DNA of 64,000 bases from Calliopum simillimum (Eukaryota; Arthropoda; Insecta; Diptera; Lauxaniidae), in the NCBI GenBank assembly GCA_951812925.1, contig OX638371.1:36182101-36246100 (forward strand), given 5' to 3'. The position numbers were made by a program, and so were the translations under genes. Shown in pieces: positions 2-60,844 of the stretch; within the stretch, counting starts at the first letter, position 1, and the number at the start of each line of letters is the position of its first letter. The notes beneath the pieces were generated by a model. The model was not told the DNA's origin. It searched no databases and saw only the letters and a list, made by a program, of their open reading frames with translations.

Positions 2-1711
2 AGGTTATTGACTGATTCTAATTCAAGGTCACATGTCTTGCGTACACCTGTCGGGGTACAGGATGGAGCAATTCCAAGTAACTTTTATGATTTTTCATCC
101 ACGATTGGAGGTGGTAACCTAGCCACTGGTTACACACAACCGGGCAGTGGCCCAATTTCAAATGCGCGACGTATATACAATCCAGCTACCGTTTTTTCAG
201 AAGGGGGTATTAGAACTCAGGCTCGTACCAAGTCCCAAGAGGGACAATTTACAAATCAGTTAAGGTCAAGGACTGGCACAAATCCTAAGCGTCCTATGCA
301 GCGTTCCTTATTAGAAGGGTTAACACCATTACCACCTGATCTTTCGAAACCACCGCCTCAAAATTCCGGACAATTTTCTATGGGCAGTTACATGCATGCA
401 AACAGAGTAAATTCACAGGCAAATACCGATAATCAATACGAATCTGTCTTGCACAGTGGGATAGTATCGGCTTTAAATATAGCGGTTTCTCAAAACGTAC
501 AAAATATAGAAAAGTCTTTAGAAGCAAAGATAGATGGACTTATAAAACCGTTCATGAAACAAGTTTTGGATCACGTGAATGTCTCTCGACAGAATAGTGA
601 TACGGGAACCAGGGTTCCTCAAAATCAAAATTGGTATAATGATTGGCACCGGGCTGATGCAAATCGGTTCCAAAATGAGGCTAGGCCAAATCACTCGAAC
701 ATCGACAACAATAGGGGAACGCCGAATGTTAATCATAATAATTTTCCGACTCAACAAGGTATAAGGGCAGGTACAGTAGGCCATGAAGCTCCTGAAAGAG
801 CTTACGAAAATGTTCATCCAGTTAAAGTCCATCAGTGGGATTTAGTGTTTGATGGCGATTCTGGAAAACTAACGGTGGAAGATTTTATTTTTAGGCTAGA
901 GCGTCTAAGGACACAATATAATCATTCTTGGCCTGAAGTTATCCGTGAATTTCATCGTTTAGTCAAAGGGGAGGCGTCAGACTGGTACTGGCTTTTCTTA
1001 ACATCTAATCCATCACCTGACTGGGACACTTTAAGCCGTGAGCTAAGGCATCAATTTCAGAGTAATAAAACTCAATTTGAAAAATTAAGAGAATTCGCAG
1101 AGAGGCGTCAGCTTCCTGATGAATCAATTGATGCGTTTTTCCATCAAGTAAAAAAATTACGTTCTTGCCTGGGGATAAATATAGATGAGTTAGAGGCGGT
1201 CAAAATTATTAAGAGAAATTTGAAAGAAAGTTTGGCCAAAGCAGTCTATCCGATGACTTCATATACTGTAGACCACTTGCGTGATCAATGTCGCGAGTAT
1301 GAATCCCTTTTTGCGCGTAAAGATTTGCGGTCTAACCAGCCAACAACGGTAAGGTTTAGACAACCTCGAGCTTACGTGAGCGAAGTGGTGGAGAGTGAAC
1401 AAGCAGGAGACCAGAATTTTTGGGGTCAAGAAGTGGAGCCTAGTGTAGAAGCTGTGCAAATGAGTCATAATATTTTAACTGAGCCTTTAAGAAGACCGTT
1501 GATTTGCTGGAATTGTTGCCAACAAGGTCATACTTACATCGACTGTCCCTCGACTGAAAGGCGGCTTTTTTGTTTTAAGTGCGGCAAAGTAGGGGTAATT
1601 ACTCCGCGTTGTCCAACCTGTTCACGGGGAAACTTGAGGGGTGCGACAAGAGCGGGTGTGTCGTGCTCGACGCAAACTCCCGCAGAAACGCCGCGATTCA
1701 ATGTGACTTAA
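2..1711 (+). CDS. gag: Retrotransposon Gag polyprotein (5' partial)
   Basis: This is the structural protein that packages element RNA into virus-like particles. The frame is open from base 2, and the first in-frame ATG is about 96 codons in, so the true start is probably upstream of the window. The first 270 or so residues are Gln/Asn/Ser-rich and low in complexity. A retrotransposon gag (capsid) domain follows at about residues 275-430, with a W-rich stretch (EASDWYWLF). Two zinc knuckles lie near the C-terminus. The first is a canonical CX2CX4HX4C (CWNCCQQGHTYIDC). The second (CFKCGKVGVITPRC) keeps the cysteines but has Val where His is expected. The 3' end overlaps pol by 133 nt in the other frame. 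Confidence 0.88.
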   Translation, partial: RLLTDSNSRSHVLRTPVGVQDGAIPSNFYDFSSTIGGGNLATGYTQPGSGPISNARRIYNPATVFSEGGIRTQARTKSQEGQFTNQLRSRTGTNPKRPMQRSLLEGLTPLPPDLSKPPPQNSGQFSMGSYMHANRVNSQANTDNQYESVLHSGIVSALNIAVSQNVQNIEKSLEAKIDGLIKPFMKQVLDHVNVSRQNSDTGTRVPQNQNWYNDWHRADANRFQNEARPNHSNIDNNRGTPNVNHNNFPTQQGIRAGTVGHEAPERAYENVHPVKVHQWDLVFDGDSGKLTVEDFIFRLERLRTQYNHSWPEVIREFHRLVKGEASDWYWLFLTSNPSPDWDTLSRELRHQFQSNKTQFEKLREFAERRQLPDESIDAFFHQVKKLRSCLGINIDELEAVKIIKRNLKESLAKAVYPMTSYTVDHLRDQCREYESLFARKDLRSNQPTTVRFRQPRAYVSEVVESEQAGDQNFWGQEVEPSVEAVQMSHNILTEPLRRPLICWNCCQQGHTYIDCPSTERRLFCFKCGKVGVITPRCPTCSRGNLRGATRAGVSCSTQTPAETPRFNVT

Positions 1712-4700
1712 GTCCCACCCACTCAAAATCGGATAATTTTGAAGAAGTCGAGGTGGGAGAAAAATTTGAAAATTATGATAAAAAGTTAAGTAAGACTAGG
1801 TTTCTGTTGAGGCACAAATCCTTAGAGGAAAGGATACGCAATTATCAGAAAGTCAGAAATAAAATTTTTGGCGAAAGTCAGCTAGTGGGAAAAAGAGAGA
1901 TTTCGAAAAAAATATTAAAAGCGAGAAATAGGTATAACCAGCGGAAAAAAATTAGACAGGAAATCGTAAGTAGTGTGACGGCAATCAAAAGCAATGATAT
2001 TCGACCATATGCGGATGTAATTATTTCTTCCATCTCTGTGCGGGGTTTGTTGGATACCGGCGCTTCTGTGAGTCTGTTAGGCAAAGGGTGTGGGAAACTG
2101 CTCAAAACTATAGGTATAGAACCAAAAGGATCAATATCTCGTGTGAGAACGGCAGGAGGCAAAACTCACTGGGTACATGGTAAAATCAAAGTACCAGTGC
2201 AGTACAAAAATCTAACAATAGATATGGAACTGTTTGTCTGTCCAACATTAGAGCAACCACTATACCTTGGCGTCGACTTTTGGAAAAAGTTCGGTTTAGC
2301 ACCCGACATTTTTGGAGTGGCATCATTGGAAGAGGAAAAACAAGAAAAGGATCCGTTGCAACACTATTTAACGTCAGATCAGGAGAAGCAGTTACAGGAG
2401 GCAGTAAAGGAGTTTAAAAGTTTTGAGGAGAACGGTCTAGGAAAAACAAGTTTGGAAAAACACACTATTATCCTGAAAGAGGGATCGGAACCAGTAAAGG
2501 ATAGACACTATCCAGTGTCACCAGCCGTGCAGGAACTTTTGTATACCGAAATCGATAATATGCTGAACTTAGGAGTTATCGAGGTGAGCAACAGTCCTTG
2601 GAGCAACAGAACCACGCTGGTGAGGAAACCCGGTAAAAATCGGCTATGTCTGGATGCAAGGAAGCTAAATGATCGCACCATTAAGGATGCATATCCCTTG
2701 CAAAATATTGAGGGCATCCTTAGCCGTATAGATGAAACAGTGTTCATTAGCAGCGTGGATCTCAAATACGCCTTTTGGCAAATTGAGTTGGAGGAAAGCT
2801 CTAGGGAGTGCACCGCGTTTACGATTCCGGGGAGACCACTTTATCAATTTGCAGTTATGCCGTTTGGGCTCTGCAACGCGGCCCAACGGTTATGCAGGCT
2901 GATGGATAAAGTGATCCCCCAGCGCCTTAAGCAAAACGTATTTGTGTACCTGGATGACCTGCTGGTGATTGCTCGAGATTTCGATACTCACTTGAAACTG
3001 TTGCGCGAAGTTGCTCAATGCCTAAGTAAAGCGAACCTGACCATCGGGTTAAAAAAATCCAAGTTTTGTATGAAGGAACTGCGCTATCTTGGGTTTGTCA
3101 TCGGAGGAGGGGTATTGAAGACGGACCCTGAAAAGGTAACTGCCGTCTCCAATATCCCAATTCCGAAGTCACCTCGAGATGTGCGTAGTTTCCTGGGGAC
3201 AGCCGGATGGTACAGGCGCTTTATAAAGGATTTTGCAACTTTGTCGTCACCGTTAAGTGATACACTGAAAAAAAGCCCAAAATTTTGTATGACCCCTCAA
3301 GCCATCGAAGCTTTCACCCAACTCAAAACTGCCTTAACGACCGCTCCTGTACTGGTACACCCAGATTTTAAACGCCGTTTCTACATACAATGTGATGCTT
3401 CACAATTCGGAATAGGGGCTGTTCTATTTCAAGTAGACGAAGAAAACAATGACAGACCGATTGCATTCTATTCCCAGAAACTCAATAGCGCTCAAAAAAA
3501 CTACAGCGTGACTGAGAAAGAATGTTTGGCGGCCGTACTGGCAATAAAAAGATTCCGACCGTACGTAGAGCTCATGCCATTTACAGTTGTCACGGACCAT
3601 GCCAGTCTCAAATGGCTGATGAGCTTGCGTGATCTCAGTGGGCGTTTAGCGCGTTGGTTATTAGAATTGCAGTCATATAACTTCGAGATAGAACACCGCA
3701 AAGGTACAGACAACGTGGTTGCGGACATGCTGTCACGAACAGTCACAGAAGATTGCGTCGATGAATTAGGATTGGATTTCGAAACTACAGAATTTAGCTC
3801 GCCTGAATACCTTCAGCTGATGGAAACAGTTAACGAAAATGGAAGTAGATTACCAGATCTAAAAGTCGTGGACGGTGTGGTATATAGAAAAACAGAATTT
3901 TCTCAGCAGGAACTGGATGAAAATCCTTGGAAAATATGGGTGCCAGAGGCACTGACTACAACAGTAATTGCTAAAGAGCATGAACCACCTTCTGTCTCAC
4001 ACGGGGGCGTAGCCAAGACTCTTTATCGAATCAGGCAAAAATATTTTTGGCCACAGATGGCTGCACAAGTGCGCAACTATGTTCGCAATTGCGTAACTTG
4101 TAAAGAAATTAAATCTCCAAATTGTGAGTTGAGGCCTAGAATGGTTAATGAGGTAGTCACGTGTAGGCCGTTCCAGAAACTTTATATAGATTTTTTGGGT
4201 AAATATCCCCGTTCCAAAACTGGTAATACTTACATATTCATTGTGTTAGACCACTTTTCGAAATTTATATTTCTTAAAGCTATGCGCGAAGCGTCGGCGA
4301 CAAACGTCACAAAATTTTTAGTTAACAATATCTTTAACACCTTTGGTGTCCCTGAATTGATCCATTCGGATAATGGAAAGCAATTCATTTCCAAAGAGTT
4401 TAAAAATATGTTGGACACTTTTAAAATCCAACATATGAAAAATGCTTTCCATTCTCCTCAGGCGAACGCCTCTGAGAGGGTAAACCAAACGGTGTTATCT
4501 GCGATAAGAGCTTATTTAGAATCCGACCATCGAGATTGGGATCTCCATCTTCCTGATATAGAATGTGCAATTCGAACAGCTGTTCACTCTTCTACCGGTT
4601 TCACACCTTATTTCGCTCTTTTTGGTCAGTCCATGTTTACCTGCGGGGAAGATTATGCCCTGGCAAGACGTTTAGGTATTTTAGAAGAAGCAAAAATTGA

Positions 4701-5007
4701 TCCGCTAAACCGAAAAGATAAAATTAGTGCCCTTAGAAACACAATTAAAGAAAACATACATAAGAGCTATGAACGCTATGCTCGACAGTACAATAAACAT
4801 AGTCGTACCATTTTATTTAAGCCAGGTCAAGAGATATACAAGAGAAATTTAATCTTGAGCGATTTCAGCAAAAATATTAATGCTAAATTTTGTAGAAAAT
4901 TTTCAAAGTGCAGGGTAGTAAAACCCATTGGTCGGAACATGTATGAGCTGGAAACTCTTCAAGGGAAATCCCTTGGGATTTTCCACGCTAAAGACATGAA
5001 ACAATAA
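1579..5007 (+). CDS. pol: Retrotransposon Pol polyprotein (protease, RT, RNase H, integrase)
   Basis: This frame encodes the element's replication and integration enzymes and is probably made as a Gag-Pol fusion, with productive reading from about 1634. Counting from 1579, the aspartic protease motif LLDTGAS is near residues 157-163. Reverse transcriptase follows, with the YLDD catalytic box near 456-459. An RNase H core (YIQCDAS) lies near 600. The integrase has an H2C2 zinc-binding region (HGGVAK then CVTC) and a D,D35E core: Asp near 870, Asp in HSDNGKQF near 929, Glu in ASERVNQ near 965. The order RT-RNase H-integrase marks Ty3/gypsy, not Ty1/copia. There is no stop or frameshift, so the copy could be active. 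The stop is TAA at 5005-5007. Confidence 0.93.
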   Translation: MRQSRGNYSALSNLFTGKLEGCDKSGCVVLDANSRRNAAIQCDLSPTHSKSDNFEEVEVGEKFENYDKKLSKTRFLLRHKSLEERIRNYQKVRNKIFGESQLVGKREISKKILKARNRYNQRKKIRQEIVSSVTAIKSNDIRPYADVIISSISVRGLLDTGASVSLLGKGCGKLLKTIGIEPKGSISRVRTAGGKTHWVHGKIKVPVQYKNLTIDMELFVCPTLEQPLYLGVDFWKKFGLAPDIFGVASLEEEKQEKDPLQHYLTSDQEKQLQEAVKEFKSFEENGLGKTSLEKHTIILKEGSEPVKDRHYPVSPAVQELLYTEIDNMLNLGVIEVSNSPWSNRTTLVRKPGKNRLCLDARKLNDRTIKDAYPLQNIEGILSRIDETVFISSVDLKYAFWQIELEESSRECTAFTIPGRPLYQFAVMPFGLCNAAQRLCRLMDKVIPQRLKQNVFVYLDDLLVIARDFDTHLKLLREVAQCLSKANLTIGLKKSKFCMKELRYLGFVIGGGVLKTDPEKVTAVSNIPIPKSPRDVRSFLGTAGWYRRFIKDFATLSSPLSDTLKKSPKFCMTPQAIEAFTQLKTALTTAPVLVHPDFKRRFYIQCDASQFGIGAVLFQVDEENNDRPIAFYSQKLNSAQKNYSVTEKECLAAVLAIKRFRPYVELMPFTVVTDHASLKWLMSLRDLSGRLARWLLELQSYNFEIEHRKGTDNVVADMLSRTVTEDCVDELGLDFETTEFSSPEYLQLMETVNENGSRLPDLKVVDGVVYRKTEFSQQELDENPWKIWVPEALTTTVIAKEHEPPSVSHGGVAKTLYRIRQKYFWPQMAAQVRNYVRNCVTCKEIKSPNCELRPRMVNEVVTCRPFQKLYIDFLGKYPRSKTGNTYIFIVLDHFSKFIFLKAMREASATNVTKFLVNNIFNTFGVPELIHSDNGKQFISKEFKNMLDTFKIQHMKNAFHSPQANASERVNQTVLSAIRAYLESDHRDWDLHLPDIECAIRTAVHSSTGFTPYFALFGQSMFTCGEDYALARRLGILEEAKIDPLNRKDKISALRNTIKENIHKSYERYARQYNKHSRTILFKPGQEIYKRNLILSDFSKNINAKFCRKFSKCRVVKPIGRNMYELETLQGKSLGIFHAKDMKQ
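1627..1633 (+). promoter_or_regulatory. Probable -1 ribosomal frameshift site (G-GGA-AAC)
   Basis: Read in the Gag frame the codons are cgG GGA AAC, a classical X-XXY-YYZ slippery heptamer. It sits inside the gag/pol overlap, downstream of the last pol-frame stop (TAA at 1576-1578) and upstream of the gag stop at 1711. A one-base slip back continues as Leu-Glu-Gly-Cys in the long pol frame. The frame relationship and heptamer are seen directly. That slippage occurs is inferred from the same arrangement in retroviruses and gypsy elements. No downstream pseudoknot was modelled. Confidence 0.65.
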
Positions 5008-7899: not shown

Positions 7900-9060
7900 C
7901 ATGTCGGTCGGTTTCGCGGTTAGTGAAAGAAAAAATAAAATGGCGTGCGTTCAGAAAATTTAATTTTTCCTTAACTCAATTTATCGTATCGTAGTAGAAA
8001 AACTACAAGAAATCTATTAGCATAAACTGTAAGTGCAGTGTGCAGTTTTTAAATTTCTTTTAATCGACTTAAAAAGTTAAGTTTAAACACAAAGTTAAAG
8101 ACACAAGATCGTAAATAGGGTTACCTATATATATATTTTTTACGTAAATAAATAACCACAAATTAAATGCTATAATACTTAAAAAGAAAAACAAGTGTTA
8201 AAGATAGAGTAAATAAAAAGTGCTAATAAGTAGGAAACTTGAAAAAAAAAAAAAGAAGACTGAAATTTTGAACGAACGCCGCTACAAATTGAGGTGTCTA
8301 CTGGAAAAACAAAAACCAAGAAAGCCAACTACAACGGCAACAATAATTTCAGAATGGTCCACCATAAATCCAACAAATTGTCATCAAAATAATAACAATT
8401 GCAGTTTAATAAGCGAGCAGCAGCAACGCAGCAAGTTTTCTTCGTCTTAACTTGAAAAAAATTGAAACGAAAAAATCGCAAAAAGTTAAAGAAAAAATTT
8501 CTGTGAAAGACATCGCCGCCTTTGTTGCTGGAGAATCAAGTTTTTTCCGTTGTAAATCGAGTTTGCCGTAGTCAGCCGTCGTTGTCGCAGTCGTCGTCTG
8601 TCGTCGTTAACCCACCACCACAGTCACCAAGTCGCCAGTCGCAGTTCGCTCACTTTAGCAGTCGCCACAGTCGAAGAGCTCACTGGTCTCTCAACAAATC
8701 AACAACAGCAACAATATCAAGAAACGCGACAGGAAAATCAAACGTCAACAATTGTTTATCCTGTCATTGATATTAAACCGCATATTGTACATAGAGAATT
8801 GCAGGCAGAGCAACAGCAACTACTCTCGCCAATAGCAATAGTTGCTGCAGAAAGTGACGAACAATTTTATCAGCAACCACAACGACATCAGAAGCAACGT
8901 ACTATTAAACGAGATCGAGAGCAACGACAATTTATATGGACAACATCAGTAACTAAAATTCTACGCAACGGAGCGGCATCAACGATCATCTAACTTCGGC
9001 AGTGTCAGCAACCAGACAGAAGCAGAAATTTTAACGCAGGTGGTAGCAGAAATTAGCGTG
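7900..9060 (+). other. CAG/CAA-rich exon-like segment, possibly 5' UTR of an unidentified gene
   Basis: Composition changes here to GTCGTCGTC, CAG and CAA-rich DNA typical of fly leader exons and opa-type repeats. A stop-free frame runs from about 8553 to 8992 (Gln-rich, QQQQQYQE near its middle) but has no ATG, so it is not a convincing protein. A possible splice donor, GCAG followed by GTGGTA, lies near 9040. It could be a host 5' UTR exon on the plus strand or the leader of a retroelement. I see no coding exon downstream to join it to. Confidence 0.3.
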
Positions 9061-13189: not shown

Positions 13190-13690
13190 CTTTGAATTAG
13201 TTTTTCGCAATAGCTCGGATAAATTTTTTCCCATTTTCCATGAATACTCTTTTTAGTTCAGTTTTTGAAGAAATATTGTGCTGGCGAACTTTTGCGTCCA
13301 GGTAATTCCACAAGATTTTAATACCATTTTTATCTAGACCCTGCGCCAGTGTTACGAATATATTGGGGCAGTTCTATTGATTCCATGATCTCATATTATA
13401 AGGAATATGTTTGAGATCGTTTTCTTGGTAAAAAAAAATATCACTACATTGACCAAGTTTATCCTTAAATTGCAGTAAATTTAGTCTTAAAATGTTCAAA
13501 TAAATCTTATGATCCTTACTTCCATCAACGAAATGGAGTATTCTAGGCCCAGCTGCTGTAAAAGAGCCCCAAACCATTAGTGAACCACCTTCATGTTTTA
13601 CATTTGGTCTAACGTTTTTCTTTAATAAAGAAGAAGCATCAAGAGGCTCGGTTGCTGTTTGCTAAAACTCACTGCCAAAAAGATTTTTTC
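13190..13690 (-). pseudogene. Tc1-like transposase, C-terminal half, left arm (decayed)
   Basis: The frame around 13374-13577 on the minus strand reads MVWGSFTAAGPRILHFVDGS and later a degenerate form of the second catalytic block (QENDLKH, where Tc1 family members have QDNDPKH). Downstream the same tail as the plus-strand arm can be followed in broken frames. The N-terminal DNA-binding half is absent. Confidence 0.65.
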
Positions 13691-13699
13691 TTTTAGAAA

Positions 13700-14215
13700 A
13701 ATGTCCTCTTCTTGAATGAAACTAAGATTAATACTTTTGGATCAGACGGCAGACCATACATATGGAGAAAACCAACTGAAGCACCTTGTTCGAAAAACCT
13801 TAAACCATATGTAAAACATGACGATGGTTCACTAATGGGTTGGGGCTCTTTTTCAGCAGCTGGGCCTGGAACAATCCATTTTGTTGATAGTAGTAAGGAT
13901 CATAAGATGTATTTGACCATTTAGAGACTAAATTTATTGCAATATAAGGATAGACTTGGTCAATGTAGTAATAGGTACTTTTAATAAGATATCGATTTCA
14001 AACATATTTCTTATAATATGAGATCATGGATTCAATACAACTGTCCAAATGTATTCGTAACACTGGAACAGGGTCCAGATATAAATGATATTAAAATCTT
14101 GTGGAATTATCTGGACGCAAAAGTTCGCCATCACAATATTTGTTCAAAAACTGAACTGAAAAGGGTATTCATGGAAAATGGGAAAAAATTTATCCGAGCT
14201 ATTGTGAAAAACTAA
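13700..14215 (+). pseudogene. Tc1-like transposase, C-terminal half, right arm (decayed)
   Basis: Two pieces are visible. Bases 13712-13924 contain LMGWGSFSAAGPGTIHFVD, the block after the first catalytic Asp. Bases 14018-14215 contain GPDINDIKILWNYL, matching the third catalytic region ([15 protein letters not shown] in the family) but without its normal acidic residue pattern. A stop at 13924 and lost catalytic residues make it a pseudogene. It is the inverted partner of the copy at 13190-13690. Confidence 0.65.
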
Positions 14216-14799: not shown

Positions 14800-15560
14800 A
14801 ATTGTAAGCGCAAGCTCTGAAAAAAAATTGGGCGAATTCGGACAAGAGGGTGTGGCACTTTTCATATAAACAAAAGCTTCAAAATGCTATACTGAAAAGG
14901 TTTTTTGAGATAAACAAACTAAATTTCACTCAGACACTAAGTATTTATTTACTAATTCGCGAGTGAAATGGGGACACTTTATTTTAGCGAACGAAAATAA
15001 AACTTCTAAAACGAAGACAAGAGAGCGCCAAACCGTCAGTGTTGCCGTTGTAGGTCAAACTTGACGAAGATTGAAGTATGTTCAGTCTTGGCGCAAACAC
15101 TAAGAACTATAAATGCAAGCTCTAAGTAAAAACTGGGTGAAATTGGACAAGAGGGCGTGGTACCTCCGATATAAGTAAAAGTTTACGGAAAGAGTTTTTT
15201 GAGATAATCCAACTAAATTTCACTCAAGTGCTAAGGACTATAAATGCACGCTCTGCGCTAAAACTAGACAAACTCGGACAAGAGCAAATGCTTCAAAACG
15301 CTATACTGAAAGCATTTTTTGAGATAATCGAACTAAATTTCGCTCAAATTCTAAGGATTATAAATACACGCTCTGAGCTTAATCTAGACAAACTCGGACA
15401 AGAGGGCGTGGCACCTCCCATATAAGCAAAACGCTATACTGAAGACGTTTTTTGAGATAATCCAACCAAATTTCACTCAGACACTAAGAATTATAAATGC
15501 AAGCTCTGAGAAAAAACTGGGTGTACTCGGACAAGAGAGCTTGGCACCTCCCCTGTAAGC
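14800..15560 (+). repeat. Tandem array of about 130-bp HINE units
   Basis: At least five units contain TATAAATGCAAGCTCTGAG, GGACAAGAGGGCGTGGCACC, CAAAACGCTATACTGAAAGC and TTTTTTGAGATAATC in this order. The same units occur in copies B and C. ORFs here are repeat by-products. Confidence 0.8.
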
Positions 15561-17204: not shown

Positions 17205-17290
17205 TTCTTTAGGTAAAATAAGGTAAACTTTGTTTAGAGGGGTTACATTTTTCGTTCTCATTTGACTAAATGTTGTATATGGGAACCAGA
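17205..17290 (+). repeat. Dispersed repeat shared with 56310-56415
   Basis: TTCTTTAGGTAAAAT, CTCATTTGACTAAAT and TATATGGGAACCAGATTTA match the order at 56310-56415, and the last block recurs near 55505. Family unknown. Confidence 0.6.
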
Positions 17291-17294
17291 TTTA

Positions 17295-17685
17295 CAGTCT
17301 TGTTCCAAAATCCTTGATTTCAATTACTTTTCATTTAGGAGGCTTTTTGTTGAAAACGGTGATTCGAACGACAAAAAGTATTAGAATCTCTTTTGTGGAA
17401 AATTAAGAGTTCTGCAAATAATATTGATTTATATTAACGAAAAAGTATCCGCTTAGGAAATATTTTGAAAAAACCACAAAAAGTCGTAAAATTCGATTTT
17501 ATCGAATATTTCCGCTAAACGGTTCCTTTTTCCTTAAAACAAATGAATATTATTTGTAGAACCTTTTTTCTCCATAAAAAGATTCTAATATTGTACTTTT
17601 TACCGTTCGACTCATCGTTTTCATCAAAAAGCCTCATAAATGAAAAGTGAATGAAACCACACGGATTACGGAACAGGCCTGTAAG
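17295..17685. mobile_element. Foldback MITE, copy 1 (second copy at 33268-33618)
   Basis: The left arm (TTACTTTTCATTTAGGAGGC, then AAAAAGTATTAGAATC) is inverted on the right side (GATTCTAATATTG... then GCCTCATAAATGAAAAGTGA). Arms are about 130 bp, with outer ends near TTCCGTAATCCG. The second copy in Cdk12 intron 1 has the same arms and core, confirming a mobile family. Confidence 0.8.
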
Positions 17686-17689
17686 TCAA

Positions 17690-18036
17690 CTTTTGGCATA
17701 AAAAGGTACCATAAATTACCTTGTGTTTGGTTCTGGAACGACGCCATTTCTTTTTTATGTAAAATCAAATTTAAATCTTACATTTCTAGATTAATTCATG
17801 AGAAGGTCCATTATAAGTTTATAGGGACATTAATAAGAGAAAAAAAGAGCCATATTTGATTTATGAAGTATATAAGATTTCTACGCATTTGCGCGATACC
17901 CTTCATTGTGTTTATTTATGTACATTTTCAATGCTAACCCTTAGACTAGTAAAAGTTAAATCATTTCTTATGAAAAATAATTAAAATTAAATTTAATAAA
18001 AAATGATCTAGTATACACATTAAATACTTAGTGCAA
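17690..18036 (-). other. 3' flank of the Fanzor gene; candidate guide-RNA region
   Basis: This AT-rich stretch lies directly downstream of the Fanzor stop codon on the Fanzor strand. In TnpB and characterised Fanzor systems the guide RNA is made from the 3' end of the gene and adjacent element end, so this is where one would be expected. I see no conserved fold by eye and no element terminus. The functional assignment is inference only. Confidence 0.25.
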
Positions 18037-19725
18037 CTATTTTTCAAAATTATAATGTTTACTTATATTATTCAGTTGGCATTCGCCCAAATATAGTATA
18101 TTTACTCCAGCATTCACGTCACGATTCCAACAAGTATTACAATTTTTGCAAAATTGGTACCGATGTGGTGACATGGATGTTTCGTTTAATTCATGGCAAT
18201 TTCCGCAAAGTTTCGTTGTTCGAAATTCATTTATGTGCATCACATGAGCACCGTGCACGCGGAACGCATCAATGAATCGTGAAAGCGGTGTACGTCTGTA
18301 GCCTTTCATTGGGGAATTAGCGGCAATTTTAGTTGAACCGACACACACCAGCTTAGGTCCCCGCATATTGCCTAAAACTGTCTTTGCAATCGCGTGATTG
18401 GTCTTTTCAACGCAAATGTATTTTTGCAACTTTACCCGAGTTACCTTTACTTGCGAAAATACACGTTGCCACTGCTGAAACTTATTTAATTGGGCACGCG
18501 TATACTGACGAAAATTAATTGTTGACATTGGTGACCATTGATTTTCGCTACTAGCAAGTAAATCTTTTCTAGTGCATTCTTTTGTGTAATGCTGCAATTT
18601 TTTCCGTCTCGATGCAAAGCCACATTCATGGTGATATTGTGAACTTTTTATTTTTATGGTTTCGGGTATATCACCATCACGAACACCATCTGCATTTTCA
18701 TATCGAATGCCGCCAACAATTAACCGCATTCCTGGATCCAGACCGATTTTTGCTACATATTTAATACTATTGGTTGGAATCTCCACAACCTTTTTCTTCT
18801 TTTCCTTATTTTTCAATGTATTTACTGATTTCCGCATTGAAAACGATATGGCCACACCGTCAGTATTAATTGAAAAATCAAATTTCTTGCTTTTTGTCTC
18901 TGGGACTTTAAAATACTGTCGCCATTCTAGGTCTCTGTCAATTGTATCGTTATGTTTCCGTAATTTGAGTCCACAAAGAAGCGAGCGAAAAGCGAATGTA
19001 TCATACCGTATATGATGTGCGCCAAATTTATTGATAGGGATTAGGGCAAAATTTTTCCAATTTTGGGACTCGTTAAATTTCGAAAGATTATAGAAAAATT
19101 TGATATGTCTCCATGGATCCATTTTTATTTTATGGAATAATTCCCCATCCCAGTTTAAGTCTGTACGCAGTAATTCCAGCAACTCTGAATCAAACTCTGT
19201 ATCAGCATTGTTGAATAAATAATTGAGAGTTAAATATGAATTCACCGTTGGTGCACGTCGCTTAAAATATTTGCGCACTCTTCTGTATGCGTGCATCCAT
19301 ATGTTGTTACAAAATATAACATCATAATTTTGAGCCGCTCTAACGAAAACATTTGACCTATTTTTTTTGCTATAAAGGCGCAAACCTGCATTACAACGCA
19401 TTTGCTTATACTCAGAGTCTAATTCATATTTAGCTTTGCTCCCGTCCAGCAAGCAATAAAAATAATCAAGGAACCGTGGCTTTGTATCACTAAACTTATC
19501 CTCCTCCCAATCTCTCATCAATGAAAAATGAATGTACCTTGAAGCTTCCACTATTAACCCAGACATTTCGTTAACATCCAAACGAATTTTATTGAAAACT
19601 TTTTCATTTAGACAGCATTTGTGAAGACATTTCTTTACGTTAACGATATTTGTGTTTTCTTCAGGTTTGGATGAAGTAGGTAGATCCTCATTCTCCAATT
19701 CAACTTTCTTTCTTTTACGTGACAT
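18037..19725 (-). CDS. Fanzor (eukaryotic TnpB-like RNA-guided nuclease), intact
   Basis: Fanzors are eukaryotic relatives of bacterial TnpB, nucleases guided by a short RNA to cut DNA, usually carried by transposons. This is a single uninterrupted 562-codon ORF starting at ATG 19725. It begins with a basic RKRKK stretch (residues 3-7) that could be a nuclear localisation signal. The TDGVAISF motif lies near 288-295. RuvC-I is KIGLDPGMRL with Asp330. Where TnpB has its RuvC-II glutamate this protein reads LVCVGSTK (about 459-466), with no acid. Glu500 in INEFRTTKLC, about 37 residues later, is the displaced glutamate typical of Fanzors. A zinc finger uses CGNC (507-510) and CKNC (526-529). 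RuvC-III is WNRDVNAG with Asp536. The family call is firm. Activity, guide RNA and the carrier element are not shown; no transposase lies beside it. Confidence 0.93.
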   Translation of the reverse strand: MSRKRKKVELENEDLPTSSKPEENTNIVNVKKCLHKCCLNEKVFNKIRLDVNEMSGLIVEASRYIHFSLMRDWEEDKFSDTKPRFLDYFYCLLDGSKAKYELDSEYKQMRCNAGLRLYSKKNRSNVFVRAAQNYDVIFCNNIWMHAYRRVRKYFKRRAPTVNSYLTLNYLFNNADTEFDSELLELLRTDLNWDGELFHKIKMDPWRHIKFFYNLSKFNESQNWKNFALIPINKFGAHHIRYDTFAFRSLLCGLKLRKHNDTIDRDLEWRQYFKVPETKSKKFDFSINTDGVAISFSMRKSVNTLKNKEKKKKVVEIPTNSIKYVAKIGLDPGMRLIVGGIRYENADGVRDGDIPETIKIKSSQYHHECGFASRRKKLQHYTKECTRKDLLASSENQWSPMSTINFRQYTRAQLNKFQQWQRVFSQVKVTRVKLQKYICVEKTNHAIAKTVLGNMRGPKLVCVGSTKIAANSPMKGYRRTPLSRFIDAFRVHGAHVMHINEFRTTKLCGNCHELNETSMSPHRYQFCKNCNTCWNRDVNAGVNILYLGECQLNNISKHYNFEK

Positions 19726-20297
19726 ATTTTAACTAACTAAAAAAAATGGTTGTTAATTTGCTTTAAAAAATATTGAAATTGAAAAACCTTATTAAGTGCG
19801 TAATTTCAACTGAAATCCGTGTCGCACGCTGTATTCAGCACAAATTAAATTTCTGCGATGGCGATCAAGCAATACACTACCAACCAGATATCTTATTTAA
19901 TTTCATTTACAAATTTTATAGTTTTTAATTCCGGAGAAAAATTCTTTTCTTTTTTTGATTTAATTCACAAAGATTTTAATTTTTTTAAATGCGTACAAGT
20001 TTTCTCGAACGTTCACTGAATAAATGATGGCTGCTTGTTCGTTCAGCTTACTCGCTAGTTCAACTAGCTTCCTTTTATAGTTTCGTTATATTTTTTTCGT
20101 TATAATTTTTAGGTACAATTATACCTTTTCCCGATTGTTAACCCTTTCAGACCCAAATAACACAATTTTATGTTAAATAATTTTTTTAATAGGTTTAATG
20201 TTTAAAAGTCGGAGAATGGTGTAATTGTACCTAAAAATGCATCGTACTTGAAAACTTGAACTCAATTTTCTCCGGAATTAAAACCTGTCAAATAATA
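19726..20297. repeat. Spacer between two divergent Fanzor copies, with nested inverted repeats
   Basis: TTTTAATTCCGGAGAAAA near 19922-19941 is perfectly inverted at 20266-20284. Inside it, TTTTTAGGTACAATTATACC near 20106-20125 is inverted at 20218-20237 with one mismatch. The arms are unequal because about 135 extra bases lie on the left. The spacer separates the Fanzor start at 19725 from the relic start at about 20298, so it may be the upstream or terminal part of the element in inverted duplication, or a foldback inserted between them. Confidence 0.65.
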
Positions 20298-20567
20298 AGT
20301 CACGTAAAATGAAGAAAACCAAAAAGCTTTGCAACAATTCGTGACCTTAGGACAACAAGGTTCTAACTGCTAAATCTGTTGCATGCAGTTAGAACATTGT
20401 TGTCCTAATGCCGCGAATTACTGCCAAGTCCACAGTTGATGTGTGTAAATAAAGCGAAAGCATCTAGATATATCCATTTGCGTTAAAAAGACAAATCATG
20501 CGATTGCACTGTGTGTCAGTTCCACTAAAATTGCCCTAATTCCCCAATGAAAGGCTACAGACGTAAA
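20298..20567 (+). pseudogene. Decayed second Fanzor copy, opposite orientation
   Basis: Bases 20471-20567 match the plus-strand complement of the intact gene at about 18295-18435 (residues around YICVEKTNHAIA to MKGYRRT). About 37 nt are deleted between the Ala codon of NHAIA and the CVGSTK block, and one G is lost before the SPMKGY block, breaking the frame. About 170 bp upstream, GTCACGTAAAA at 20300-20310 matches the first codons of the intact gene, with similar flanks. Nearly all the body is missing. The internal match is strong; the N-terminal match is short and less certain. Confidence 0.75.
20337..20420. repeat. 84-bp hairpin within the Fanzor relic, copy 1
   Basis: The arms 20337-20371 and 20386-20420 are 35 bp each and complementary with a few mismatches (core CTTAGGACAACAA / TTGTTGTCCTAA and GTTCTAACTGC / GCAGTTAGAAC), with a 14-base loop. 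Copy 2 follows at 20579-20662. Confidence 0.85.
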
Positions 20568-20578
20568 TTACTTTCAAC

Positions 20579-20662
20579 AATTTGCGACCTTAGGACAACA
20601 ATGTTCTAACTGCTATACCTTTTGTATGCAGTTAGAACATTTTTATCCTAATGTCGCTAATT
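20579..20662. repeat. 84-bp hairpin within the Fanzor relic, copy 2
   Basis: The arms 20579-20613 and 20628-20662 repeat the design and sequence of copy 1 in the same length and are preceded by the same CAACAATT. The two hairpins bracket the internal Fanzor fragment with 158 bp between them. They may be tiny palindromic MITEs or structural parts of a Fanzor-bearing element. Confidence 0.85.
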
Positions 20663-22734
20663 GTCATCAAAATAATGAAACATCAAAGTCAATGCTATTA
20701 GTCATTGATTTCAATGCTAATAATTATTTAACTTTAAATTTAAACCTTGAAGTTGTATTAGTTATTATATAATAAATTAAATTTATTTAATTAGTTATAA
20801 AAGTCCTTTACAAATAAGATATATATATGCATGATATACACATATAAAATTTGCAACTGCATGAAAGTGTAAGCATATTGCAGAGTTTTAAAACATAAAA
20901 TTAATGTATTCACTTTTGCTTGCATTAATTAATGCAGAGATTTTAGAATTATTTGTGTTCATTTAATATTGACAATGCGTTTGTTTTAACGATTTATACT
21001 TTTCTACTTTTAAAACTAAGATTTTCATGTGTTGTATTATTCTTTTTTTAATATTCTTCAGTCTCCACACACACTTAACTAAATTTTCAAGTTCAACATT
21101 TTCTTTGAATTGTAGCTTTAAATGTTTTCCAATTTTGTTTTAGTTTCCTTTATTTTTTTTACTTTACTTTTTTTAACTCCAATGATATATATAAAAAATA
21201 TACAAATTATTTTATTTTTAGTTATTTCATAAGCTTTACTATTTACCTATTTCCTCCTGTTTGTGTTAAATTTTTGATTTTTTTTTTTTAGAAAATATAA
21301 CAACTTCAATTAACATTTGTTTTTTGTTCATTTTTATTCAGAGTTTTTAGATTATTCAGTTTCTTAACACAATCAGATTTTTTTTTTAATTAAACTTAAC
21401 TATTAAACTAACATAAGTTTTAGCATAAAATTAACAACTTTAATATGAAAATGCAATACTTGCATTTAATTAAAATGTCTTGATATTTATTATATTTATT
21501 ATTATTTTCTTTTATTTATTCAATTAGATAGAATTGCATGAATATTCAATCAAGTAAATAAAAAAAAAAAACTCATAAAAATTGCAAAATTAACATACTA
21601 TACATTATAAAAAGAAATAAAAACTGAAAAATTATACTTTTTTGTCGTCCATTATCAAAAGCAAAATTATGTTGACGTGAAAATAGACCAAAAGCAAATA
21701 GTTGCATCGAAACATTTTTTTATAAACCGTAATACACTTTTTTTTAATTAAAATTGTGTGTTTGATTCACTAGGACATATGATTTATACTCTGAAAACTA
21801 AAATACGTCACAGTTTTAAAGCTATATTTGAGCACAACAAGAATTTTGATCGTGTTACCATGTACAAATGTTAAAATTACTTGAGAAAATACAATTAGTT
21901 CTGAAATGCATTTAAAAAAAAAAGAAAACTTACAGGCAAATTTTTCAAGTGATTGAAAAGAAAATCTGGGGCTGAATCGCCGCATCAGTGAGCGCACAAT
22001 TTGTGACGTAAAATCATGAATTTAGTAATGCAAAATACATGTGAAACACATGAGTTTACTTCACGAGTTGTACGTTAACGTTGTAACGTCGATTCGATCC
22101 CAGCATAGTTCTTTTGCCATTTCGAAACGATTCGGTCGAAATGTTCAATAGCTGTATTTAGGGTCTGCCTTTAAGCAAATGATGATCCATATTTATTTTT
22201 AGTGTATTTTACAACGACAACAAATAATAACTTCAGTTTTTATAAAATAAATTTGGCATTGCCCTTTAATATTTTTTTGCTATTTATATATAAATTTATA
22301 TTTTCGCTTTTATACATAATATTTCCATTATTATAATATACAAAAACTAAGGTATGTTGTTTAATTTAAAGCAGTTTTCGCATTAAACTTTAAGAAAATT
22401 GTTTCATTAAGAAAAGTAAAGAAACAACAAAAACCTAGCCTACAATTTATTTTGTTATTACAAACTACACCACGTAATATTGTAGTTTAATATATATATA
22501 TATATAAGTATATATAGTAGTTAGAACTGTTATTTTTGTTTGTTTTTTTTTTTTTTTTTCATTGAAATTAATAATTATTTATATTAATTTAATAGTAGTG
22601 AACAAATTGATCAATTCAATTCAAAATCGATTATTTATAACAACATCTATAATAATTCTTAGAACATATTTATGATTTTGTTAATATTTAGATGATGAAT
22701 ACAACCACAGTTACTGTTGTTGTAAATCTAATTG
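20663..22734. other. AT-rich stretch downstream of Cdk12
   Basis: Very AT-rich DNA with poly-T runs, a TA run near 22490-22512 and no coding frame. The part next to 22735 is probably the Cdk12 3' UTR (many TTTATT, that is AATAAA on the minus strand, so no single poly-A site can be chosen). A MITE lies at 21967-22105. Confidence 0.4.
21967..22105. mobile_element. Short MITE, copy 1 (inverted second copy at 39448-39575)
   Basis: CTGGGGCTGAATCGCCGCAT at the left and CGTCGATTCGATCCCAG at the right are imperfect inverted ends. The interior GTGACGTAAAATCATG and CACGAGTTGTACG match the second copy closely in opposite orientation. Confidence 0.7.
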
Positions 22735-31900: not shown

Positions 31901-34900
31901 ACAAAAATTATTCCTTTCGTCTACTATAAATTGATAACAGGTCAAGCTTAGTCCGAGAGGCCCAGAAATTGGGCTACCTCTACTGGGCGGGACCATAGGT
32001 CAATCGTAGAGAGGTTGGTGGGACGGGAAGGACAGTTAAAAAGGTGGGAACTGTCATGCGGACTACTACTGCATAATGGGCACCGATCTATTTTTGTCCA
32101 TAAAATCAAGACAAACCCAAATTATCGGCTCCAAAAATAGTCAGTGCGAAAACTGTCCGCTGCGTGCCCCAATTTAAAGCCACTCATAATCAAAAAAAAA
32201 AAAAGCCAACAAAGTTTACTTGCCTTTGCTATGGAAGGACAGTTAAAAAGGTGGGAACTGTCATGCGGACTTCCACTGCATAATGGGCACCGATCTATTT
32301 TTGTCCATAAAATCAAGACAAACCCAAATTATCGGCTCCAAAAATAGTCAGTGCGAAAACTGTCCGCTGCGTGCCCCAATTTAAAGCCACTCATAATCAA
32401 AAAAAAAAGCCAACAAAGTTTACTTGCCTTTGCTATGGAGCTCAGTATTAGGTTTTCGCCACTATGCCATGTCATCAGATCCAAAAACCCGATTTGCACG
32501 AACGAAACTTTCAATGGAATTGTAGTGCTATTTTTTGTATAAATTTTGCAATTTTTTTTTTAACCGCCTTCTCTTGGCTTAATTGTGCTTATTTATATGT
32601 TCAAAAGTTGTTTGCACGGATTGATTTAATTTTTACTCCTTTAAAACAATTCTTTCTTATCATAGTGTTTTTTTTTACTATATTGCTGATTTTTTTAGAT
32701 CTTAGGATTCACCACAAAACAGGTTCTATTACTTTTTATCGTACGTCTCACGGTTTCAGAGATATTCTTCAAAAACCAATGTTTTCGAAGTTTTTGCAGT
32801 TTTGAACAATATCTTCTATGAATATAATTTTCTATAAATAAGTTTTTTCACCTTTTTTGTACAAGTTATTCTAACTTTAAAAGTGAAACATATTGATATG
32901 CATCTGCATGTAGCAGTTACCAGTAAACAATTTTCAACACTTTTTAAATTGGCTTATCTCTTAAACTACAAGTTGTCCGAAAACAATCCTACCACTATTT
33001 TACAGAAAATTAATTAAGCTACAAATTGCAATACAACATTTTTCTATAGAAGTAAGCGTTAGCGAGATATTTGCAAGAAACTGATTTTTTCGACCTTTGA
33101 GCCTTAATAACTTTTTATGCGCACATGACTTTGCAATAAATTTTTCACACATTATTTATCATGCATAAATAAAGATATTTCCGGTGAAAAGCTTCAATTG
33201 GAATTATTTCGCACTGCAGCTCTTTTTTCGTCTAATTTTTCTAGCCTTTCGACGGAAACAAACATACATGTCTGTTCTGTAATCCGTGTGTTTTCAATTA
33301 CTTTTCATTTAGGAGGCTTTTTGATGAAAATGGTTAGTCACACGATAAAAGTGTTGAAATCTTTTTTGTGGGGAATTACAGGTTCTACAAATAACATTGA
33401 TTTACATTAACGAAAAAGTAACCGTTTAGGAAATATCCTTAAAAAACCGCAAAAAGTTACTCTTTAGTAAATATAAATCAATATTATTTGTAGAACCTGT
33501 AATTCTCCACAAAAAAGATTCTAATACTTTTTATCGTGTGACTCACCTTTTTTTTATCAAAAAGCCTCCTAAAAGAAAAGTAATTGAAATCATGCGGATT
33601 ACGGAACATGCCTGATAGTAATCTCCAAAGATAGTATTTTAGGCCCCATGCATTTCATTGTGTTTATAAATGATGTTTGTAAATGTTTTTAGTCAGCATT
33701 TTACTTTTTGCGGATGACTTGAAGCTATTCTATAGAGTATCCCATAGTTATGATATTGCTATTTTACAATGTGATCTCAATAACCTACATTTATGGAGTT
33801 TAGTGAATTTTTTACCTTTAAATATCAAAAACTGCTTCTCGGTTTCCTTTTTTAAGTCTAGAAATCCCTGACCTCTAGCTATTTTCATGTGGGATGTCCT
33901 TTACAGGCTGTAAATTCAGTTCGAGACATGTGAGTTAATTTTGATTCGAATTTCACTTATGTTGATCATTTGAACTTGATCATACCTAAAGAATATTCTT
34001 TGCTAGCTTTTGTGCGTGGAAATAGTTCAGAATTTTCTGACCCTCACACTCTGATGTGCCTTTACAATTCGTTTTTTAGGTCTAGATCAGAGTGCGCTGC
34101 GCTCTTAAAACTTTGCAGGGTCGTTGCTTTGTTATAATTCGAGATGTATGCTTTGGATTTAAAGTTCCTTGACTCGAGTGGGAGTATTCACTATCTTATT
34201 TTTATATGCACTTGATCTTATTTCTGAAAAATTTATTGTGCTCAGCTGTTTTGTTGAATTAAACATTCCTACAAGGACGTTGCATCATTTTAATTTATTT
34301 AATAAATATTCAGCTTCATAGAACTCATTGTCTTAAATGAACCGATTACTCGAGCTTTATCATTGTTTAATGAATTATCTATGGGAAACAATTTACATCT
34401 ATAGCTTTCAAAACTATAATTTATGAAATCACTAAATAATTTATGTTTGTTTTAATTAGTTTTTATCTTTAGTATACGGAGGGCCTAACAAAAGTTCGCT
34501 TAGAAGTTGTCATGTTATGAATTTTTAGTAAATCAAAAAATTGCGTACTATTTATTATAGTCTAACGATATATCATTTTAATTTTCAGAAAGATCGGTGT
34601 GAAAATATTTAGTGAATGCCAAATAGCATATGAAGCTAATGCGCCATCCCTCGTGACTATTTCAAAGTGGTTCCGAAGATTCCAGACAGGTCATTTTTCT
34701 GTGGAGGACGAACTTCGAGAAGGCCGCCCAAAATCTTCGACTGATTATGCAAGTGTAGCGCCGGAGAAGTCTAAAATTGACGAAGATCCAAGATTGACCC
34801 AGGAAATCTTTGCTGAGCGACTGGGCTTGAATGCCATGGCTGTATCGCGAATATTAAAAAATGATCTTGGATACACGAAGAAATCTGTAAGATGGGTTCC

Positions 34901-37900
34901 TAGAATTTTAAGTGATGCTCAAAAAGAGGCACGTGTGCGTTATGCAAAGTATTTTCTTGAAAAATTCAAAAAACGGAAAATTGTAACAGGTGATGAAGCA
35001 TGGTTTTACAAGTACGACTTTGAAACCAAACAACAATCCATGGTATGGAGCCCAGAAGGTGCGAGTCCACCTGTTAAAGCAAACCAACAAAAGTCAGCAA
35101 CAAAAGTAACACCAGAGAGAAAGTTGTAGCTGCTTTTCCTTTGGAAGTGGTATACTAAAACCTGCATACCAAAAGTTTTCCAAAATTTATTGGGAAAACG
35201 CCAAAAAAGGAGCTACGTCGCTACTTTCTACATCTCAATAATGCGCCAGCGCACAATGCTGAAAAAACGACCGATTTTATTGCGCTTTCAGGCATCAAAG
35301 AAATTCGTCCAGCACTTTATTCCCCAGATCTAGCGCCTTGTGATTTCTGGTTGTTTCCAAACATAAAAAAAAAAATTTGAGAGGGAGAGTTCAACAGCAA
35401 TGTGGTTAATGATGAAATTGTAAAACTGCAAAAAGCCGATTTTGAAGACTGTTTTTCAAAATGGATTTATCGACTTCAAAAATGTATCAAAATAAATGGC
35501 GATTACGTAGAAAAAATACAAATAGATAAAGAATAAAGTTATAAATTTAAAAAAATTTGTATGGAATTTTTTCAATTCTACTAAGCGAACTTTTGTTAGG
35601 CGCCTCATATATTTCATTTTTTACTTGTCTGTAAGGAATTATAAATCCAAAGACTGAATAAATTAAACTAAACTTAAATTACTTGTCGTATTTGTCCACA
35701 AACCTCTATGTGAATTTGGCACAACTTGTTTCATCCAATTCTATTCTGAATGGCAACACATACAATATAATTAATGTGTATCCTTAGAGATACAGGTTTT
35801 TGTTATTTTTTACAAAAACCATTAATGTAGAGAATGCTAGCATTGTTTCTATACCTCTCATAAGGTAAAAAATATATGAATAGTTTTTTTTAAGTGGAAC
35901 ATGTCCATAAAGGTGACAAAAATAATGTCAAATGCATTACGTACCGTTATCGATTATTTTAACGATATAATTTTTCAACAACAAATACCTCCAAAAATGG
36001 GCATGGGCCTATTGCATTCTAAGGTATTGATATGTTTTGCTTCCAAAACATTGTCATGTTAATAATAAATTTTGCTATAATAAATGCGACTATTTTCACA
36101 TCTGTGAATAAAATAATCTTACAACATCTTATCATTGGAAGAGTGGGAGTTCTAAAATCATTGGAATTCTGCTTACGTAACGCTTCAACGCCCTCTAAAT
36201 AAAAATAACAAAATAGGTTAAAGCACCATCTCGTGAGTCCATCTGATATAATCCATATCCAAACTAATTCATACTAATATTATAAATGCGAAAGTAATTC
36301 TGTCTGTCTGTCTGTTACCTTTTCAATTTGGTACGGAGATAGTTTTAGAGCCTAGGATAGTTCCTATTTCTTAAATCTTCCCTTAAGGGGGCGAAAAGAG
36401 GGGTGGAAGTTTGTATGGAAAATGATTGTGTGTGTGCCAATTGAGCTAAAAATTCGGCACTGAGTATGTAGTATCTTAGGTAAAGGAAGATTTTTGTGCT
36501 AGACACGAAGGTTTCCGAAAGTCACGCGAAGGCTTCGTAGTCAAAACAAAGAATATCTAGATATACTAAAGGAAAAACATCTATGGCGGACTATCACCTA
36601 GCCTTAATTTATAGTTTCCTGGTAAACCCGAAGGTTTGCGGTCAACCGAAGGCTTCATAGTCAAAACGAATCTTAATTGATAGTTTTCTGGCACCCCCGT
36701 AGGTCACCCAAAGGCTTCATAGTTAAAACGAAGAATATCTAGGCATATGAGACGAAAAACATCTTTTATTGATAGTTTCCTGACATACCTGATATGAATT
36801 CCAATGTTTTTCGACAATTTTGGAATTTTACCGATATTTTGGATATATTTTGATACTTTTGGAATTTTACGATACTTTTTGACTTTTACTAATGTTGATG
36901 ATGTTTTTCGATGCTTCAGGCTTTTTACTGATTTCCTCGATGTATTTCAATAGTTTTCAATATTATTGGACTCTTATGGATATTTTAGATGTTTTACGAT
37001 ACAACACAATAACACAAAAAATTAAATTTTGATGGAATTTTTTTTTTATTTGTTTCAGTATACTCGGAAAATCATCAAGAAAAGACTCACGCTTGAACAA
37101 CGCTACGAAATTATCCAAATATACTTTGAAAATCAGTCGTCGATTCTCGCTTCATGATTTTTATGGCGCACATAATCGTCCATCGCCCGAAATCATTTTC
37201 AAATGTTAATGCCATGTATTAATCTTTCGAATAAAACCCTTTATTTGAACTTTTACCGACATCTTCGATGTATTTCAACATTTTTCGATACTTTTGGAAT
37301 TTTACCGATATATTGGATATCTTTCGATACTTTTGGACTTTTGCCAATAGGTTCAATGTATTTCAATATTTTTAGATACATTTGGACTTTTAGTTTTTAG
37401 ATGATTTTCGAAACTTTTGGATTATAACCGACATTTAAAATGATTTCCAATATTTTTGCACTTTTAGAGGTAACAATTTTATAGAATTAAATAAAATTAA
37501 TATATAGGAGCATCTATTTTGGAACATTATTTTATAAAAATAGTTTTCCTTATTAGCTTTCTTTAGTGCTTTAATCCTATAAAACATATTTTTATTAATA
37601 ATATTTGTGGAATAAGTGACATAAAACCAATTTTTTGTTTTTTCTGCCAATAATCCAGTGAAAAATAAAACATAAATCTAGCAACTCCGGGTAAAACAGC
37701 TAACTTTCCATATTTTTAAAATTAAAACACATGTGGTGGAAAAAAATGGGAGAGCATTTATTTCTTCAGGTTTAAAATTCAGCAATCATAATGATTTGTA
37801 AAATAACAAACAGCAAAAGGATTATCTTATGAGTATTTTTGAACCCGCCTGCCAAAATCTTGTTTATAATGGGTTAAAATGTTCTAGAAAAAAAAAAATC

Positions 37901-60113: not shown

Positions 60114-60844
60114 TTGGGTGTACAACTTTGCTTCCGCCGTTTTCCGATAGGTGGCTGTACCGGCTGAGGCTGGTTGAAATACATAGATGATAATGCCTTT
60201 AAAGTGAGTGTGGATAGTGCCTAACGAATTTTCATCGCCGTTTCAGTGACAGTTGTTCTTGTTTTTGTATTATTCACGCTCGAAAATGTCCGTTTATGTC
60301 CCAGTTCTCGCCATTTGCGGGAAGTTTTACTTTTCTGTTACAATTCGAAAAAAAAAACCGGGTGAAACCATCACAGGAGATCGCTACCGAACGCAACTGA
60401 TGCGCCTTAGTCGCGCGCTAAAAGAAAAGCGGCCACAATATCAAGAGCGACATGACAAAGTCATCCTCCAACACGACAATGCTCGGCCTCACGTCGCAAA
60501 AGTGGTCAAAAAGTACCTGGAAACGCTGAAATGGGAGGTCTTGCCCCACCCGCCGTATTCCCCAGATGTCGCCCCTTCTGACTTCCACCTATTCCGTTCG
60601 ATGGCACACGGCCTGGCAGATCAACATTTTCAATCCTTCGAAGAATTGGAAAAATGGATTGCTTCATGGATAGCGTCAAAAGAGGACTCCTTTTTTCGAG
60701 CCGGGATCCGAAAATTGCCGGAAAGATGGGAGAAAGTTGTCGCTAGCGACGGACAATACTTTGAATAATACATCTGTAAGCACTTTTTCGCAATAAACCT
60801 TTTAATTTTGGAAAAAAACGGCGGAAGCAAAGTTGTACACCCAA
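60114..60844 (+). mobile_element. Deleted mariner-like element nested in the foldback
   Basis: TTGGGTGTACAACTTTGCTT with CCGCCGTTTT at the left is exactly inverted at the right, with TA on both sides. At 731 bp it is about half the normal mariner length because the region for the transposase N-terminus is deleted. Confidence 0.88.
60253..60768 (+). pseudogene. Mariner transposase, C-terminal part
   Basis: From GETITGDRYRTQLMRLSRAL the frame follows a mariner transposase to its normal end (ERWEKVVASDGQYFE). The second and third catalytic Asp are present (QHDNARPH and PYSPDVAPSDFH, 34 residues between). The first Asp and the whole DNA-binding half are missing, so it cannot act alone. The first 30 or so residues of this frame are not mariner-like and mark the deletion junction. 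The clean frame suggests recent origin. Confidence 0.85.

Follow-up and report, generated by a model that had tools for sequence, protein, structure and literature searches.

The Fanzor1 gene and its position

The analysed stretch of DNA, called the window below, comprises 64,000 nucleotides of contig OX638371.1 of the fly Calliopum simillimum (positions 36,182,101 to 36,246,100 of the forward strand). It contains a gene of the Fanzor1 family, relatives of CRISPR cutting enzymes that are carried by mobile DNA, as well as a decayed relative of this gene, the host gene Cdk12 and parts of other transposable elements. A preliminary description of the window, based on the letters alone, had reported an intact Fanzor beside a decayed copy. 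The gene and its motifs are located as follows (SpuFz1 is the Fanzor1 of Spizellomyces punctatus):

18037..19725, minus strand: intact Fanzor1 coding sequence, 562 amino acids, ATG to TAG
18856..18864, minus strand: T288-D289-G290 of the WED domain, characteristic of Fanzor1, from the alignment (13 of 13 proteins)
18736..18738, minus strand: RuvC-I catalytic Asp330 (D-P-G), paired with D383 of SpuFz1
18226..18228, minus strand: Glu500, the alternative RuvC-II glutamate, lying six residues ahead of the zinc finger, paired with E541 of SpuFz1
18139..18207, minus strand: C4 zinc finger Cys507-Cys510 ... Cys526-Cys529, in the PF07282 match at residues 490-543, invariant in 13 of 13 proteins
18118..18123, minus strand: RuvC-III Arg535-Asp536, with D536 paired with D606 of SpuFz1

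The 562-codon open reading frame was recovered at exactly 18037-19725 on the minus strand; it opens with ATG, closes with TAG and is free of internal stops, while the plus-strand reading of the same interval contains 34 stops. When the window was shuffled base by base 30 times, no stop-free run exceeded 179 codons, compared with the 562 observed. The absence of introns that had been claimed for the gene holds for the coding region; in the 5' leader an intron (about 19910-19737) is possible though unproven.

Family membership and relatives

The identification as a Fanzor was borne out by profile, motif and fold evidence, and the search with TnpB and Fanzor profiles, which the preliminary description had named as a check, gave matches. 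The sole Pfam family above cut-off was PF07282 (Cas12f1-like TNB), with an E value of 2.5e-8 at residues 490-543. The protein search retrieved 13 relatives among 3504 candidates, eight of them with 40-49% identity, four with 35-36% and one, truncated, with 44%, and a repeat search using the alignment returned the identical 13 proteins. The alignment and the tree comprise 13 rows, i.e., the window protein and 12 of the 13 relatives, as the truncated one was left out. In the tree, a starred branch unites the window protein with eight relatives (P0002-P0009); the order inside this group, as regards the window protein, is unsettled, and a program warning pointed to long branches meeting at this point.

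Two relatives are named fly proteins. The protein of the midge Diamesa hyperborea (P0013) has 35% identity over the matched part and carries a long low-complexity N-terminal extension, while that of Rhagoletis zephyria (LOC108365044, P0014) has 44% identity over the matched part, is 329 amino acids long and is without the nuclease half. The latter is predicted as an uncharacterised protein and matches the N-terminal half of the window Fanzor1; it may be a damaged copy or result from a wrong gene model. In prokaryotic genomes, 298 pattern-matching stretches yielded 18 loci, in which only the C-terminal part was matched, and none of the 25 pattern-matching stretches in viral contigs encodes a relative.

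The Fanzor1 layout D-X(125,275)-[TS][TS]-X-X-[C4 zinc finger]-X(5,50)-RD, taken from Bao and Jurka 2013 (PMC3627910), is present with D330, T503-T504, C507/C510/C526/C529 and R535-D536. The molecular fingerprint of Fanzors is described as DPG at RuvC-I combined with a glutamate that precedes the zinc finger by six residues, and TDG as characteristic of the Fanzor1 WED domain; bacterial TnpB has D-hydrophobic-G at RuvC-I, and there the canonical glutamate precedes the zinc finger by about 50 residues (PMC10711439). In the window protein, DPG is formed by D330-P331-G332, invariant in 13 of 13 proteins. The aspartates D330 and D536 and the four zinc-finger cysteines (C507, C510, C526 and C529), all reported in the preliminary description, are present and equally invariant across the alignment, as are E500, R535, P331, G332 and T288-D289-G290. 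Assignment to the bacterial TnpB class (IS200/IS605, IS607) was rejected, DPG being present and E500 being the sole invariant glutamate of the RuvC part. No serine recombinase of the Fanzor2 type (IS607-type TnpA) was found among the eight window pieces given to Pfam, a scan that was not exhaustive. Structural alignment placed the predicted fold closer to Fanzor1 than to Fanzor2.

The single-sequence search of the PDB retrieved mimivirus L79 (6.4e-6), LaTranC and Cas12f (E 0.3), L79 being classed as a Fanzor2 from its PDB title. The profile search gave eight distinct sequences, with SpuFz1 on top (7.5e-18), followed by L79, LaTranC, GtFz1 (2.6e-4), Cas12m and Cas12f. In the main stretch of the SpuFz1 profile alignment (64.8 bits), D330 and E500 stand opposite chain positions 777 and 935, while D536 stands opposite position 1000 in a separate second stretch that shares W-N-R-D; the structural alignment spans D536 too. 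Subtraction of the fusion offset of 394 residues (our count) converts these positions to D383, E541 and D606, which are magnesium ligands of SpuFz1; the fourth ligand, N385, is replaced by G332 in the window protein (PMC10432273). The alignment to solved Fanzors is consistent with the expectation that D330, E500 and D536 would meet in one active site, and no outcome contradicting it was seen.

The decayed relative

The preliminary description had placed a decayed copy next to the intact gene. A decayed relative does exist, on the plus strand at about 20266-20691 and about 0.5 kb away, although it is much smaller than what would be called a copy. Its pieces are collinear with the intact gene and lie head-to-head to it, i.e., in inverted orientation:

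20266..20317, plus strand: remnant leader and start-codon region, inverted relative to the intact gene
20472..20576, plus strand: remnant coding pieces, matching 18421-18385 and 18347-18280 of the intact gene, with the bases between missing
20659..20691, plus strand: possible further remnant piece, dubious (76% identity, E 0.09)
20329..20419, no strand: hairpin (fold-back) repeat, copy 1, inside the remnant stretch
20572..20662, no strand: hairpin (fold-back) repeat, copy 2, inside the remnant stretch, 87% identical to copy 1
20105..20238, no strand: imperfect palindrome of 134 bp between the intact and remnant copies

The leader piece (20266-20293, 28 nt) is 89% identical to the intact sequence and the start region (20294-20317, 24 nt), in which the start codon is lost, 88%; the strong coding pieces, 20472-20508 and 20510-20576, reach 89% and 90%. 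The piece at 20659-20691 was not relied on, because 18 of its bases also match 8376-8393 exactly, and the block 20202-20238 resembles remnant sequence but may belong to the palindromic repeat instead. The palindrome at 20105-20238 may be a miniature inverted-repeat transposable element or the axis of an inverted duplication. Apart from short edge matches, the 91-bp hairpin repeats have no other near-full-length match within the window.

With the weak block included, the remnant and the intact gene differ at 22 of 154 coding sites. The differences are spread nearly evenly over codon positions 1, 2 and 3 (6/51, 7/51 and 9/52), as expected of a drifting remnant, and are too few to judge the intact copy. 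The persistence of an open frame was simulated with substitutions only, in 2000 copies per divergence level. The frame remained open in 67% of the copies at 0.5% divergence, 45% at 1%, 19% at 2%, 9% at 3% and 1.85% at 5%, and in none at 8%. As simulated frames close so quickly with divergence, the intact copy either arrived recently or is under selection. The recent activity or capture that had been suggested for it is consistent with these data, which fit ongoing selection equally well.

Leader, 3' end and candidate guide RNA

The regions flanking the coding sequence contain the following features:

about 19737..19910, minus strand: possible GT-AG intron in the 5' leader, unproven, with a T8AG acceptor
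17935..18039, minus strand: candidate omegaRNA scaffold, unproven, in which three stem-loops follow one another immediately downstream of the stop codon
17911..17916, minus strand: AATAAA, resembling a poly(A) signal, 121 nt beyond the stop, a short and commonly found motif
17289..17687, no strand: palindromic repeat of about 400 bp directly downstream of the Fanzor gene, related to 33254-33614

The leader also carries TATAAA, a short motif of a kind that is common. At the remnant junction 20293/20294 (plus strand), compared with 19912-19729 of the intact gene (minus strand), the remnant is without almost exactly the predicted leader intron, and in 3% of cases a random deletion of the same length lies equally near to both a GT and an acceptor. 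This is given as a remark only, since the comparison was conceived after the data had been seen.

The interval 18039-17935 folds with a z score of -3.49, and 1 of 200 shuffles folded as well. The fold scan covered 51 overlapping stretches (our count); three of the 27 stretches of 90 nt gave z under -1.8, no richer a share than in the control (15% of 60 windows). The three stem-loops are thus treated as a candidate only, because 4-5% of the control windows fold as well and because it was chosen from a scan of dozens of overlapping stretches. Rfam gave no matches in the window at gathering thresholds. The guide RNA of insect-virus Fanzor1s has been predicted with three stems at the 3' end (PMC10711439).

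Search for element ends

Inverted pairs of 12 bases with up to two mismatches were counted between the flanks 17690-18036 and 19726-20480, which gave 82 overlapping pairs; 10 single-base shuffles, which do not keep dinucleotide content, gave 28-63. This excess may reflect AT-rich composition or worn ends. No target-site duplication was seen by eye beside the 40 inverted pairs, of the 82, that were printed. In local alignments of the flanks, the best inverted score of 19 was reached by 5.7% of 300 shuffles, and the direct score of 15 by half of them. A GGGTTA direct repeat flanking the element, which is part of the score-15 direct alignment, was dropped as a candidate. The motif TAATTGTACCTAAAAAT, with four occurrences at up to three mismatches, was also rejected, as it was equalled in 7 of 100 shuffles.

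Genomic neighbourhood

The fly origin of the sequence was confirmed by the upstream same-strand gene Cdk12, which best matches fly Cdk12. Among the best 120 of 139 matches, the joined Cdk12 exons agree best with Anastrepha, Lucilia, Haematobia, Teleopsis and other flies, and no near-identical entry is found among these 120. These best matches place the host among the flies, and probably among the higher flies. The last Cdk12 exon in the search ends at 24534, and a further exon-like frame, recognised by eye only, lies at about 22.7-22.9 kb; given these exon ends, the Fanzor start lies about 3 to 5 kb downstream of Cdk12.

A Ty3/gypsy-like element occupies 8-5007 (plus strand) with uninterrupted frames for gag (567 amino acids) and pol (1142 amino acids); Pfam matches to gag, reverse transcriptase, RNase H and integrase are above cut-off and protease-like matches below it. 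It may be a young copy. Mariner-type transposase pieces lie at 34599-35129 (N-terminal) and 60253-60768 (C-terminal), both on the plus strand and with all Pfam matches below cut-off. None of these neighbours clearly belongs to the Fanzor element. The broken frames at 13377-14212, which by eye we take to be a Tc1-type transposase look-alike, gave no transposase match when three pieces were searched in Pfam. At 15174-15559, a unit of 133 nt is repeated three times in tandem, at spacings of 120 and 133 nt and with 73-81% identity to the reference copy.

Comparison with known Fanzors

The window gene is a clear further member of Fanzor1, a family described earlier in a few flies and in insect viruses. 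Mayetiola destructor, the Hessian fly, is a gall midge and does not belong to the higher flies. According to Bao and Jurka 2013 (PMC3627910), it has 13 Fanzor1 families, and the motif layout given in that paper is also present in the likewise dipteran window gene; since these families have been in print since 2013, the window gene is not the first fly Fanzor1. Arthropods are also listed among Fanzor1 hosts by Saito et al. No higher-fly Fanzor is described in the titles and displayed abstracts of the papers listed, which came mostly from outside the subscription journals.

SpuFz1 (8gkh, 9cez) has 18% identity to the window protein. Its inverted repeats are defined, and both its RNA of about 90 nt and its cutting activity have been proven (PMC10432273), whereas the window gene is known from sequence. 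Among viral proteins, the best fold match was the 'transposase' A0A0B4VG12 of Tipula oleracea nudivirus (642 residues; TM score 0.78, 33% identity), a viral protein compared as a row of the fold search only, and the third-best was a protein of Helicoverpa armigera granulovirus. The Fanzor1s of SfAV and other insect viruses are Fanzor1-only elements in an insect setting, as the window element would be; they have described inverted repeats and sequenced RNA (PMC10711439), whereas the three-stem RNA of the window is a candidate.

Interpretation

We consider it highly probable that the locus holds a coding-intact Fanzor1 gene a few kilobases downstream of Cdk12, from a lineage with named fly members, most likely left by a small Fanzor-only transposable element. 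The family, the predicted fold, the intact frame, the catalytic residues and the adjoining decayed inverted relative are directly supported. By analogy with characterised Fanzors, the protein may still function as a nuclease, with RNA guidance and cutting of DNA. More indirectly, we infer that the intact copy was carried by a transposon and may have had a role in maintaining it.

By the same analogy, the protein would bind a short structured RNA produced at the 3' end of the locus that encodes it; the final 15 or so bases of this RNA, derived from the DNA just outside the element, would be the guide. A short motif beside the target would be recognised, the DNA opened and both strands cut by a single RuvC site (D330, E500 and D536). 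After cutting of a vacated or unoccupied site, repair would tend to draw on the chromosome that carries the element, and the element would thereby be kept or multiplied, its movement being presumably performed by the transposase of another element.

Several results weigh against this interpretation. Neither transposon ends nor a target-site duplication could be defined from the flank scans, and among the control windows for RNA folding, 19 of 375 reached a z score of -3.1 or below and 14 of 375 reached -3.66 or below. NCBIfam TnpB models matched the C-terminal end below their curated cut-offs (25 bits against 100), the single-sequence PDB search at E up to 1 missed SpuFz1, unlike the profile, and in the profile search L79 and LaTranC outrank GtFz1. 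The stretch pairing D536 with D606 scores only 0.7 bits by itself, and model confidence is below 50 at residues 1-22, 303-318, 347-350, 393-396 and 471-479.

It is possible, though on the whole doubtful, that the gene is a silent copy, i.e., a recent insertion with an intact frame that is untranscribed or without a working guide RNA and is starting to decay. The decayed relative 0.5 kb away, the richness of the region in hairpin and palindromic repeats, the failure of the flank scans to find convincing element ends and an RNA structure not clearly beyond background would all suit such a copy, but it retains the full reading frame and every catalytic residue, and the TATAAA in the leader and the poly(A)-like signal also speak against silence, though such short motifs are common.

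We think it improbable that this is a transposase-free Fanzor1 which a higher fly is still maintaining as a functional RNA-guided nuclease, with a guide that comes from the 3' side of the locus. The inverted remnant, from which the predicted leader intron is almost exactly missing, may be derived from a spliced RNA or be an internally deleted derivative. Co-option, by which a fixed single-copy Fanzor would serve the host, for example, in the control of other transposons or viruses, seems quite improbable. The intact frame beside a decayed relative would agree with it, as would the failure to recognise an adjacent transposase among the pieces tested or to find clear inverted ends. The GC content at third codon positions also equals that of the single readable Cdk12 exon stretch (0.333 and 0.333); however, this match is weak, since gag of the nearby retrotransposon comes close to it at 0.344 and AT-rich sequence prevails throughout the region. 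Fanzor1s elsewhere, moreover, are carried by mobile elements (PMC3627910).

Arrival of the gene with a nudivirus-like genome, as a piece of an integrated insect DNA virus, is very unlikely. The nudivirus and granulovirus proteins among the top viral structural matches point in this direction, and the nearest protein relatives lie on contigs of 1.8-7.2 kb, which could themselves be viral. Those relatives, at 40-49% identity, are nevertheless nearer than the nudivirus protein (33%), and the recognised neighbours are Cdk12 exons, a Ty3/gypsy-like element and mariner remnants, in a scan for viral genes that was not exhaustive. A bacterial TnpB present through contamination or bacterial insertion can be practically dismissed, even though the weak NCBIfam matches at the C-terminus and PF07282, which is common to TnpB, would fit it.

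Significance

To our knowledge, the role of Fanzors for their hosts or elements in animals is an open question. The window Fanzor1 is of interest because it is intact and occurs in an animal group with good genetics. Its nudivirus fold relative bears on the idea, put forward in 2013, that viruses carry Fanzors between hosts (PMC3627910). As a coding-intact fly Fanzor1, the gene looks complete enough to merit laboratory testing and would offer an animal setting fairly close to Drosophila for tests of expression, guide RNA and the spread of the element.
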